Below, piece by piece: positions 4,268 to 16,010 of a stretch of 26,778 nucleotides of DNA (positions are counted from its first letter, which is position 1; each line of letters begins with the position of its first letter). The DNA is from an uncultured Victivallales bacterium (lineage in GTDB: Bacteria; Verrucomicrobiota; Lentisphaeria; Oligosphaerales; JAFGRS01): NCBI GenBank assembly GCA_903834675.1, contig CAILKC010000553.1, forward strand, positions 1-26,778. Reading direction: 5' to 3'. Made by a program: the position numbers and the translations under genes. A model generated the notes under the pieces. That model saw only the letters and a program-made list of their open reading frames with translations, searched no databases and was not told the origin of the DNA.

Positions 4268-4993
4268 TCAGGAGACCTTGCCAACCCGGATGTCGAGGTC
4301 TTCGCGGCGCTGCAAGCGGTCGACGCTGCCGTCCTTCACCCAGAGGATGCGGTCGGAGGTGGCCAGCATCTTGTGGTCGTGGGTGGCGGTGATGACCGTG
4401 ACGCCGTATTCCTTGGAGAGGGAGCTGAGGAGATTGATGATCTCCTCGCCGGTGACCAGGTCGAGGTTGGCCGTGGGCTCATCGGCAAGGATGATGGCAG
4501 GGTCGTTGGCGAGGGCACGGGCGATCGCCACGCGCTGCTGCTGCCCCCCCGACATCTCATCGGGACGGTGGGTCAGACGGTGGCCCAAACCGACCCGGGT
4601 GAGCACTTCCTGCGCACGTTTCTCGGCATCGTGTGGGCTGAGGCCGCTGAACAGCAGTGGTAAGCAGACATTCTGCACCGCGTCATAGGCCGGCAGCAGG
4701 TTGTAGGACTGAAAGACGTAGCCGATGTGGTTGCCGCGGAAGTGGGCCAACTGGCGCGGGCTCAACCGCGTCAGGTAGACACCGGCGACCTCGACCTCCC
4801 CGCTGGTGGGACGGTCCAGCGCACCAATCATGTTGAACAGGGTGCTCTTGCCGGAGCCAGACGGCCCCATAATGGATAGGTACTCGCCGCGGTGGATCTC
4901 CAGGTCAATGTTGCGCAGAGCGTAGACCACGGTCTTGCCAAGATTGAACTGCTTGTTGACGCCCTGCACTCGGATGAGGATGTCCTGGCTCAT
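4268..4993 (-). CDS. ABC transporter ATPase, LolD/MacB type (second copy in operon)
   Basis: This 241-aa nucleotide-binding subunit powers a MacB/LolCDE-type mechanotransmission transporter. It has Walker A GPSGSGKST at 43-51, Q-loop FQSYNLLPAYDA from 94, signature MSGGQQQR at 147-154, Walker B IILADEP at 167-173 and switch His205 in THDHKM. The SYNLLP sequence after the Q-loop is typical of the LolD/MacB/FtsE group. All catalytic residues are intact. It is the last gene of the operon, 20 nt after the OPT-like gene. It shares an unusual C-terminal tail with the other ATPase of the operon (RR, acidic pair, then I-x-VG), so the two look like an internal duplication. Its partner is most likely one of the two FtsX-type permeases upstream. 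Confidence 0.93.
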   Translation of the reverse strand: MSQDILIRVQGVNKQFNLGKTVVYALRNIDLEIHRGEYLSIMGPSGSGKSTLFNMIGALDRPTSGEVEVAGVYLTRLSPRQLAHFRGNHIGYVFQSYNLLPAYDAVQNVCLPLLFSGLSPHDAEKRAQEVLTRVGLGHRLTHRPDEMSGGQQQRVAIARALANDPAIILADEPTANLDLVTGEEIINLLSSLSKEYGVTVITATHDHKMLATSDRILWVKDGSVDRLQRREDLDIRVGKVS

Positions 4994-5013
4994 GAATCCG
5001 ATATCCTGTTGCG

Positions 5014-14755: not shown

Positions 14756-15135
14756 GAGCGGTCCCGTATCACGATCGCCAACACCCCGCGCTGGATGAGC
14801 TTCTGCAGGTAACCGGTCACGGCTGCCCGCGCTTCATGGAAAGTCAGCCTGTGCTCGTCCTTGAAGCGATCCACGATCTCCTCCACCGTCAGCTTGCCGT
14901 CGCACCACTGCCAGACCTGGCGCCCCAACGCATCCAGCATGATCTCACGCTCCGCCGAGTAGGGCACTACCCACGACACCGGCGGAACCATCCAGGCCGG
15001 ACGCTTGCGCTTGACGTATAAAGTGACGCCAGTCGAGCCATTTTCCACCGCTCTGGCGGCAGTATTTCGGGTGGGCAGGGCGCGCAGCATGCCACCCCAG
15101 TCCGCCTCGCGGCTCAGGTCGACCGCGTCGCTCAC
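14752..15135 (-). CDS. PqqD-like protein (RiPP-recognition-element fold)
   Basis: This 127-aa protein carries a PqqD-type winged-helix core at about 66-125: LDALGRQVWQWCDGKLTVEEI, then VDRF, EARAAVTGYLQKLIQRGVL. PqqD domains bind leader peptides and deliver them to modifying enzymes such as radical SAM proteins; none is visible here. The ~65 N-terminal residues (with WMVPPVSWVVPYS) are extra relative to a minimal PqqD. The start was set at GTG 15135 rather than the longer ATG at 15162: GGAGG stands exactly 7 nt before the GTG, and the GTGA overlap with the upstream stop is typical of coupled translation. The next gene (permease) starts with another ATGA overlap. A role in substrate recognition for the ABC system is inferred from context only. 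Confidence 0.85.
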   Translation of the reverse strand: MSDAVDLSREADWGGMLRALPTRNTAARAVENGSTGVTLYVKRKRPAWMVPPVSWVVPYSAEREIMLDALGRQVWQWCDGKLTVEEIVDRFKDEHRLTFHEARAAVTGYLQKLIQRGVLAIVIRDRS

Positions 15136-16010
15136 AGCGTTACCTCCACGTCGGCGCAGCAACTCAGGACGCCCGGCGGCCGGGCTGGCCGGTGGCGGTC
15201 GGCGCCACGATAAGCTTCACGACAAACCAGGTAGAGCCGCCCGTCGCGGGGGCAGATCCAGGCCGCGGCAGCGTACTCGCGGCGTCCCAGAAGCAGGTCA
15301 GGAAGACGGGGGATCTTACGTTCGGCCCGGCTCACCGCCACCGTGTGGCCGTGGTTGTCCTGTTCGCGCCCGAAGGTGGTGCGGAATCCGCGCGGCGTGC
15401 TGCGCCGCAGCCAATCTGGCACCGGCTCATGCAGCCACTGGGGCAGGAGCCCGCGCCGGGCAAAACGTTCCCAGGTGCGCCGCCGCTCCGAACTGAAGCT
15501 GAACTGGGCGCAGGCTGGATCCGCGCTGCAGTGCTCCAAAAAACTGCCGGCGGGAGTGAGCAAGTCCATGCCGAAGGCGCGCCAGCGGACCTGCCCCGCA
15601 CGGGTTGGTTCCTCAGGCCGCACGGAGGCCAGGACCTGCGCCTCCGTGGGTTCGTGCCGGGTCTTAGGCCAGAGGAAGACCATTTCCACCAGGCAACTCA
15701 AGGGGGTAAAAAAGGCGCCGTAACGCGAGGTAGCACGCCGGTCCGGCAGGATGCCGTGGACCCCCTGCCAGCCGCCGCATTGGAGGCGCCGCGTGTCCTG
15801 GATGCCGTCCTCGTCCAGCCGCGAACGGTAATCGGTCAGCAGGCGCTCGAAATCGGGTGCATTAGGAACCACGCGCCAGTTGATCTCGAAGCGAAACTGG
15901 GTTCGGTCCGCGAAGGCGCAACGCCCCATCTGCGGGTTGCGGGTGAACTGCAGCAACTCCCACTCGTCGGGGAGCTCCACACGCAGTTGACGCCAGACCC
16001 AACTCTGCAC
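15132..16010 (-). CDS. Unknown 292-aa protein, first gene of the ABC/PqqD operon
   Basis: I do not recognise this family. It has no signal peptide or transmembrane segment, so it is likely cytoplasmic. It is rich in Trp, Arg and Cys (Cys at 31, 78, 106, 161, 167, 253, 263, 284, 285). It begins with a strand-rich segment (WRQLRVELPDEWELL, then FTRNP, CAFADR, FRFEINWR). A second, weaker version appears from Trp143 (WRAFGMDLL, then FSFSSERR), which suggests two related halves. The C-terminal part contains WICPRDGRLYLVC. The GTG at 16010 is preferred over ATG 16049 because AAGGAGG lies at 16015-16021 and the conserved-looking sequence begins here. It overlaps the PqqD-like gene by 4 nt, so a shared function with it is probable. 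Confidence 0.75.
   Translation of the reverse strand: MQSWVWRQLRVELPDEWELLQFTRNPQMGRCAFADRTQFRFEINWRVVPNAPDFERLLTDYRSRLDEDGIQDTRRLQCGGWQGVHGILPDRRATSRYGAFFTPLSCLVEMVFLWPKTRHEPTEAQVLASVRPEEPTRAGQVRWRAFGMDLLTPAGSFLEHCSADPACAQFSFSSERRRTWERFARRGLLPQWLHEPVPDWLRRSTPRGFRTTFGREQDNHGHTVAVSRAERKIPRLPDLLLGRREYAAAAWICPRDGRLYLVCREAYRGADRHRPARPPGVLSCCADVEVTL
15143..15147 (-). promoter_or_regulatory. Shine-Dalgarno deciding the PqqD-like start
   Basis: GGAGG is read on the minus strand, 7 nt before GTG 15135. It sits inside the end of the preceding gene and favours the GTGA-overlap start over the in-frame ATG at 15162, which has no comparable site. Confidence 0.75.

Follow-up and report, generated by a model that had tools for sequence, protein, structure and literature searches.

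A conserved operon joining two ABC ATPases, FtsX-type permeases and an OPT-like protein to a predicted pseudopeptidase

What kind of envelope machine would combine two ATP-binding cassette (ABC) ATPases, two FtsX-type permeases, an OPT-like membrane protein, a PqqD-like protein and a 292-residue protein? The question is raised by a seven-gene operon in a contig of an uncultured Victivallales bacterium (CAILKC010000553.1; the window, here, is the whole stretch of 26,778 nucleotides that was analysed). An initial annotation had proposed an undescribed envelope transport system, a proposal that our analysis supports: gene order is kept among relatives, and the curated cut-offs for LolD, LolCE, MacB and FtsEX are not reached. 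The reading we favour, with confidence poised evenly for and against it, is that the operon would encode one inner-membrane machine, composed of a type VII ABC motor, OPT-fold subunits and a pseudopeptidase receptor.

Results

A coupled and conserved gene set

The seven genes lie on the minus strand (4268–16010) and are translationally coupled, as annotated; in gene order the junctions are a GTGA overlap (15135–15132), an ATGA overlap (14755–14752), a 27-nucleotide gap, a further ATGA overlap (12443–12440) and gaps of 2 and 20 nucleotides. Pfam agrees with the annotated families—ABC_tran (2e-36 and 8e-30), FtsX (3e-11 and 3e-13), OPT (7.7e-8, above gathering) and PqqD (6e-10). Three annotated absences also stand: no radical SAM enzyme is found by Pfam in the 18 window open reading frames (ORFs) scanned, there is no room for a precursor gene, and the operon encodes no MacA or TolC.

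Relatives were sought with the largest product, a 1794-residue protein (the giant), as query (of 7,987 candidates scored, 586 proteins reached E ≤ 0.001, and the listing covers 120 of these). Scanning species genomes with a 28-row alignment of the giant gave 74 loci, assigned by locus title (as were the genome samples below) to Lentisphaerota (Victivallales and others), Kiritimatiellae, Verrucomicrobia, Opitutaceae, Akkermansiaceae, Planctomycetota/Phycisphaerae, Omnitrophota and Latescibacterota. One carrier is cultured, Oligosphaera ethanolica DSM 24202 (L004). A plasmid search for the giant found none.

Using component profiles, and counting only loci with enough flank, the giant is accompanied by the OPT protein in 62/62 loci, the 491-residue FtsX protein in 48/49, ATPase 2 in 50/53, ATPase 1 in 45/49, PqqD in 32/39, the 292-residue protein in 26/34 and a DUF6785 protein in 15/28; the profiles derive from these very loci, a bias towards detection but not towards adjacency. 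Alignment A7 holds 18 of 45 sequences plus the window. Whole gene strings come from the 28 of 74 loci with room on both sides. The window's exact string recurs in 11 of these, and 15 add DUF6785, 10 with all window genes (PqqD fused in L017) and 5 missing at least one (L005, L028, L031, L063 and L074). Both the PqqD and 292-residue genes are absent from L021, and L071 has ATPase 1 listed ahead of OPT, in overlapping frames. The operon's gene set is not a chance grouping, and the gene-order check in Planctomycetes–Verrucomicrobia–Chlamydiae genomes that the annotation had proposed comes out in its favour. Beside the block, a few relatives share recurring genes of mainly housekeeping type (FAA hydrolase, FtsJ, PFL, MurJ, a glycosyltransferase), so we place the block edges at the 292-residue gene (or DUF6785) and ATPase 1.

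Further afield, 12 divergent loci from the phylum sample of genome G001 all hold a giant, an OPT and a DUF6785-like gene; 11 have FtsX, and 11 have one ATPase or more. The parts are often differently ordered, and the 292-residue and PqqD genes are less frequent. Of 16 loci in the samples of Latescibacterota and Planctomycetota, 12 hold OPT, 8 hold DUF6785 (in one case fused) and only 4 hold ATPases or small FtsX; the L115 stretch stops just past the giant. Strong giants (≥140 bits) occur in 50/288 genomes of the G001 sample, where 95 genomes matched; the other 45, whose scores of 20–41 bits came mainly from the FtsX stretch and in a few cases from the M28 part, were not counted. At E ≤ 1e-20, giants occur in 29/199 genomes of the G006 sample (Planctomycetota) and in 55/60 of the sample for G007, the genome of Latescibacterota locus L074 (1–15 matches each, gene pieces counted separately). 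Samples were drawn at a completeness setting of ≥80, the output carrying no completeness values. Some genomes hold several giant copies.

A separate observation concerns a 23S-rRNA-intervening-sequence family gene (PF05635; L027, 7344–7877) that splits otherwise adjacent operon genes; a gene of the same BLAST cluster lies likewise between operon genes in L015, L035 and L059.

A predicted inactive M28 fold on an FtsX-type permease

The annotation's second FtsX-type permease does possess an FtsX unit, but the annotation had overlooked that this protein is a giant whose ectodomain has an M28-aminopeptidase fold. The ectodomain has lost its metal-binding residues and is joined in one chain to a membrane and FtsX part. 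Profile comparison and the predicted structure both give the M28 fold, with profile matches to the inactive M28-fold proteins Nicastrin and transferrin receptor (E ~4e-5) and Pfam Nicastrin hits in 3/52 ectodomains at E ≤ 0.01. A long helical insertion is seen in the structure model by DSSP. Alignment A2 covers 51 of 53 eligible loci (two omitted, shorter ectodomains excluded).

We inspected the M28 ligand columns, placed from the profile alignment, in 68 distinct giants (69 rows, L074 being entered twice); the remaining Asp ligand lay outside the inspection. The metal-ligand His at column 256 is kept in 7/68, the bridging Asp (column 272) and last His (column 756) in 0/68, and a catalytic Glu in 1/68 (column 302) or 5/68 (column 303). 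The Asp of the HxD motif (column 258) is retained in 67/68. No giant has the complete inspected set, even with neighbouring columns allowed, and the ectodomain is predicted to be catalytically dead. Pseudoenzymes often serve as receptors.

One relative, the L091 giant (5572–11145), has a LysM module (PF01476, 1e-13) inside its M28-fold ectodomain, and LysM-like text is visible by eye in the ectodomains of L090 and L097. LysM is a peptidoglycan-binding module, and its insertion here suggests contact with peptidoglycan.

Both permeases carry PF02687, the FtsX unit of type VII systems, to which the giant adds three hydrophobic segments and its N-terminal ectodomain. Searching solved structures with phmmer relates the giant's unit to an ABC permease (5xu1, 2.8e-6), MacB (6.3e-5), LolF (0.003) and LolC (0.03); its third hydrophobic segment, at residue 1556, is weak by hydropathy. 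The 491-residue FtsX protein has four hydrophobic segments (grouped by hand) with a loop of ~316 residues between the first two; an excerpt of PMC5985334 describes the type VII layout as four helices plus a large periplasmic domain, as in MacB. MacB_PCD (PF12704) is found in none of the window proteins; it is below cut-off in L106 and present on one listed homologue, P0049.

The Walker A, Walker B and signature motifs are intact in both LolD/MacB-type ATPases, as type VII nucleotide-binding subunits should have them, and canonical throughout their families (49/49 for ATPase 1, 42/42 for ATPase 2, window included). Despite a best LolD-model match of E 3e-70, the two fall below the curated cut-offs for LolD (236 and 217 versus 307.75), MacB (220 and 194 versus 966) and FtsE (206 and 189 versus 264.85), as do the permease scores for LolCE (47.8 versus 362.45) and FtsX_Gneg (23 versus 255). 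A darobactin-export ATPase model gives 198 and 203 bits, its cut-off being 375.

The strongest named match to the giant's membrane part comes from PADLOC: residues 1104–1633 (window 7545–9134) align with positions 73–560 of the 810 in model CARF_m8--CARF_LolE_TM (E 5.9e-57), and in five divergent giants the match ends by model position 630. No CARF family is among the Pfam hits of the window proteins and divergent giants scanned. We considered a defence system and rejected it on two counts, this match being confined to the membrane part and the PADLOC hits of the ATPases (mad3 1.7e-33 and others) being judged generic to ABC/AAA ATPases.

DUF6785, an eighth component

All seven annotated components are conserved, but the set is larger than annotated. 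An additional gene of ~690 residues is present in 28/75 loci, the window being included among those that lack it. It can be situated upstream of the 292-residue gene, between PqqD and FtsX or following ATPase 1; Pfam assigns the two members scanned to DUF6785/DUF6784. The family was overlooked because the window lacks it (no Pfam match among the window ORFs scanned). It is nevertheless a predicted part of the system.

Giant and DUF6785 form a single polypeptide in 5/5 long Latescibacterota ORFs examined (2124–2145 residues; by Pfam for L106, by our own profiles for all five), so direct contact between the two is likely. DUF6785 occurs in 48/288 genomes of the G001 sample, 47 of which have a giant (giant in 50/288; phi 0.95), and in 26/199 of the Planctomycetota sample, all 26 with a giant (giant in 29/199; phi 0.94). 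A control family, GH127 (145/288 genomes), gives a phi of 0.18 (p 0.003), as against 0.95 for DUF6785. Comparing OPT and DUF6785 profiles with a broader alignment gives E 6.5e-6 and a probability of 85% over 300 columns, centred, by eye, on a common E-LP(F/Y)P motif. Alignment A6 holds 18 of 28 plus 9 sequences. No paper found by keyword in the open-access literature names DUF6785.

Locus L001, the closest to the window (giant 91% identical), lies in genome G002, which has 13 DUF6785 genes, counted from 14 pieces; we infer that the window's lineage likewise encodes DUF6785 outside the operon. An operon-only clade was tried and rejected, since in a FastTree phylogeny (midpoint-rooted, inner supports not inspected) the 26 operon-linked copies are interspersed with 12 that stand alone, drawn from three genomes, and with one on the opposite strand at L038. 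Sugar transport was considered as a candidate role of stand-alone DUF6785. Ten proteins near stand-alone copies, not always adjoining them, include four that are possibly carbohydrate-related (GH127, a below-cut-off GH42, a solute-binding/permease fusion and a mandelate-racemase type); the others are housekeeping, have no assignment or carry a hydrazine-synthase-type domain. The last of these, a protein with a hydrazine-synthase-alpha middle domain, sits beside a stand-alone DUF6785 at L128 (1698–4763).

OPT proteins and copy numbers

Alignment A5 of the OPT family (14 of 62 main-family proteins, 18 proteins of divergent loci and the window's own) has 18/33 members matching OPT at E ≤ 0.01. 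Searching by sequence found no solved relatives of OPT or DUF6785 at E ≤ 1. One member of A5 has a PDZ domain, and in the L104 protein (3986–7222) a stretch of ~385 residues separates the two matched parts.

Taking pieces of one gene as one, copies of giant/OPT/DUF6785 number 2/2/10 (plus a fragment) in G001, 2/2/13 in G002, 2/2/2 in G003, 1/1/1 in G004 and in G008, 3/3/3 in G010, 1/1/8 matches in G015, 1/1 (plus a fragment)/1 in G017, 4/4/30 matches in G007 and 4/4–5/33 matches in G014; G006 has 14 places/8/12 places. A one-to-one rule for giant and OPT therefore holds in 8/11 genomes, is compatible with G014 and G017, and does not fit G006. DUF6785 ranges from one per giant up to 8–33 matches in genomes with 1–4 giants.

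The 292-residue protein and its PqqD-like partner

The 292-residue protein had been annotated as unknown, which stands insofar as no Pfam or NCBIfam family matches at E ≤ 0.01, but its fold is recognizable. The structure model (predicted local distance difference test score of 94.3) has two like halves, the first resembling Tli4/TplEi, SciW, DcrB and Mog1, the second PsbP; no internal repeat is detected by sequence. We assign it, on the model, a predicted tandem Mog1/PsbP/DcrB fold. It is fused to the PqqD-like protein at L017, and PF05402 is found on three longer homologues among the 120 listed. The window's PqqD-like protein does not reach the equivalog cut-off of the PQQ pathway (24.5 versus 46). 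Eag chaperones (EagT6, and SciW by entry title) bind transmembrane segments (PMC7773334), so the 292-residue protein may handle a hydrophobic segment; likeness of fold to Eag alone shows no function, and the role is a possible one.

Features and surroundings in the window

Coordinates are collected in Table 1. A promoter and terminator scan of the window gave no excess over shuffled sequences, and an Rfam search no match.

Table 1 Features of the operon in the window
Feature	Position	Strand	Basis
292-residue protein, leading gene of the operon; predicted cytoplasmic, predicted tandem Mog1/PsbP/DcrB-type fold	15132..16010	-	start GTG
AAGGAGG, ribosome-binding-site-like, 4 nucleotides 5' of the GTG of the 292-residue gene	16015..16021	-	sequence
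PqqD-like protein, 127 residues	14752..15135	-	PF05402 39.8 bits, cut-off 23.4
FtsX-type permease, 491 residues	13280..14755	-	PF02687 3e-13; hydropathy on family alignment
LolD-type ABC ATPase 2, 270 residues	12440..13252	-	Pfam/NCBIfam matches; canonical motifs
Giant, 1794 residues: M28-fold ectodomain, membrane helices, FtsX and C-terminal domain	7059..12443	-	
Giant residues 43–799, M28-aminopeptidase fold with PA-like part, metal ligands lost	10047..12317	-	
Stretch inside the giant's ectodomain	10515..11258	-	DSSP on structure model; putative placement
Giant residues 1105–1182, three hydrophobic segments ahead of the FtsX unit	8898..9131	-	hydropathy
Giant residues 1236–1622, FtsX-type unit	7578..8738	-	PF02687 at 1510–1622; hydropathy; phmmer
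Giant residues 1640–1794, conserved C-terminal domain	7062..7526	-	invariant columns in alignments A1 and A4
OPT-like membrane protein, 680 residues	5014..7056	-	PF03169 31.9 bits, cut-off 25.8
LolD-type ABC ATPase 1, 241 residues	4268..4993	-	Pfam/NCBIfam matches; canonical motifs

Upstream of the operon lie an MscS-type channel fused to an FHA domain (16133–17689) and, adjoining it, a Ser/Thr kinase with TPRs (17748–19787). Neither is an operon member: the 74 relatives give 0 MscS and 2 kinase matches, both on the opposite strand. The region is flanked by LpxK (lipid A kinase; 1022–2191) and TatC (24205–25332), and 21058–23805 has a DUF4350 match below cut-off.

Discussion

How might these parts work together? 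In the single inner-membrane machine that we favour, the two LolD-type ATPases would drive a type VII (MacB/LolC/FtsX-type) permease pair, made of the 491-residue FtsX protein and the giant's FtsX part. ATP-driven motion would be passed on to the giant's dead M28-fold ectodomain with its long helical insertion, acting as a receptor or gate for a periplasmic solute. The solute would go through, or be handed to, the OPT-fold subunits, these being the fixed OPT protein and DUF6785; many species have the DUF6785 gene inside the operon, whereas the window's lineage probably has it elsewhere. The 292-residue and PqqD-like proteins would be a cytoplasmic accessory pair. We infer the union of all parts in a single complex, its transport role, its direction and its coupling; the substrate may be peptide-like or oligosaccharide-like. 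Type VII systems do mechanical work in the periplasm, as an excerpt of PMC12646458 has it. The addition of OPT-fold subunits suggests that in this case a carrier is linked to the motion and that the pseudopeptidase serves as receptor or gate.

Several points weigh against such a machine. The same excerpt of PMC12646458 states that type VII ABC systems typically move no substrate across the membrane. At 12 of the 16 Latescibacterota and Planctomycetota loci there is no ATPase or small FtsX in the stretch read (15–19 kb), and L106, L107 and L110 have no OPT there either; the motor may thus be non-obligate or shared. OPT homology is modest (18/33 members at E ≤ 0.01). The initial OPT–DUF6785 comparison reached a probability of only 21%, and the later one spans about half of each protein. 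Giants outnumber OPT genes in G006. Three genomes per sample have a giant without DUF6785 and one has DUF6785 without a giant, and the co-occurrence statistics (Fisher p-values) ignore kinship.

The amplification of DUF6785, the one-to-one giant and OPT counts in 8/11 genomes and the interspersed stand-alone copies are consistent with a variant that we regard as possible though somewhat unlikely, an ATP-driven transporter of a new class whose one core (two ATPases, two FtsX-type permeases with the pseudopeptidase receptor, and the fixed OPT) would serve exchangeable DUF6785 subunits scattered through the genome. The energising module of energy-coupling factor (ECF) transporters, which serves many substrate subunits, would be its counterpart.

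Less probable, and in our view doubtful, is FtsEX/Bce-type signalling or regulation, in which the ATPases and FtsX proteins would move the pseudopeptidase to sense or control the periplasm (cell wall, envelope stress), with the OPT-like proteins as sensors or anchors and not carriers. The LysM module in a relative's ectodomain fits this idea, and FtsEX is one of the type VII ABC systems that act in the periplasm without transport (PMC12646458; PMC5985334). However, no neighbour is as constant as the OPT-fold protein, and some genomes have amplified DUF6785, which makes carriers likelier than sensors.

Extraction of amphipathic lipids or lipoproteins from the inner membrane towards the outer, as by LolCDE or YbbAP-TesA, would account for the LolD-type ATPases, the LolC/MacB-type permease parts and perhaps the long helical insertion. 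The excerpt of PMC12646458 also offers a precedent, YbbAP-TesA coupling a type VII ABC system to a hydrolase partner. The genomes point elsewhere: in 18/18 carriers examined another gene outscores the system's FtsX on the LolC/E model (near full-length and ≥266 bits in 14/18, none above the curated cut-off), so replacement of Lol is unlikely, and the window proteins themselves fall below the LolD and LolCE cut-offs. LolA was found in 7 of these 18 genomes. We know of no place for OPT proteins in lipid or lipoprotein extraction systems, and consider this reading distinctly unlikely.

If the operon simply co-transcribed separate systems, at least an ABC complex and an OPT carrier, this would explain why 12 of the 16 distant giants stand without nearby ABC genes, mostly with OPT or DUF6785. 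We think it improbable, as the giant itself has an FtsX unit, five genes fuse it to DUF6785, and giant and OPT counts agree in eight of 11 genomes and are compatible in two more. Most improbable is export or maturation of a ribosomally made peptide, its leader bound by PqqD, for which the PqqD-like domain and the darobactin-export scores can be cited, but which meets intergenic gaps of ≤27 nucleotides with no room for a precursor gene, no radical SAM enzyme in the ORFs scanned, an unreached darobactin cut-off and recurring flank genes that are mostly housekeeping.

The analysis suggests a role for three kinds of protein that so far had none assigned: DUF6785/DUF6784, giant M28–FtsX proteins and the tandem Mog1/PsbP protein. 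Should the single inner-membrane machine prove right, an ABC motor working with OPT-type carriers and a dead peptidase receptor would be a mode of envelope transport for which we know of no match.

How does the operon compare with known systems? It is apparently undescribed: keyword searches of the open-access literature, outside which most subscription papers lie, found no such system named. This is qualified by PADLOC, whose models CARF_m8--CARF_LolE_TM and CARF_m8--CARF_Beta-galactosidase_LolE_TM come closest among named families to the membrane part of the giant; relatives of that part are already catalogued, given how strongly the models match, and the match hints at relatives with a CARF-type sensor domain. 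Only the membrane/FtsX stretch is matched, the model remainder, where a CARF domain may lie, being unmatched. A 2020 survey of the CARF superfamily is reportedly the source of the LolE_TM label.

For the accessory parts, DcrB/Eag (DUF1795), Mog1 and PsbP resemble the halves of the 292-residue protein in fold but differ in having no tandem arrangement and no sequence match; Pfam shows no type VI secretion machinery among the window ORFs scanned. The window's OPT protein is above the Pfam cut-off of its family; DUF6785 matches OPT distantly, by profile. To our knowledge, OPT carriers work without an ABC motor.

Among ABC systems, LolCDE and LolDF share two FtsX-type permeases and LolD-type ATPases with the operon, which differs in adding the M28-fold ectodomain, OPT, PqqD and the 292-residue protein and in staying below the curated cut-offs. 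MacAB-TolC shares a four-helix FtsX-type permease with a large periplasmic domain (excerpt of PMC5985334), whereas the operon has no fused ATPase and neither MacA nor TolC. YbbAP-TesA is likewise a type VII ABC system with a periplasmic hydrolase partner and more than four transmembrane helices, but its TesA is an active, separate esterase and it has no OPT part, whereas the hydrolase fold of the operon is predicted to be dead and is fused (excerpt of PMC12646458).

The giant's ectodomain has its closest parallels in Nicastrin and the transferrin receptor. Like it, these have an M28 fold without catalytic residues; unlike it, they are eukaryotic and have other membrane partners.

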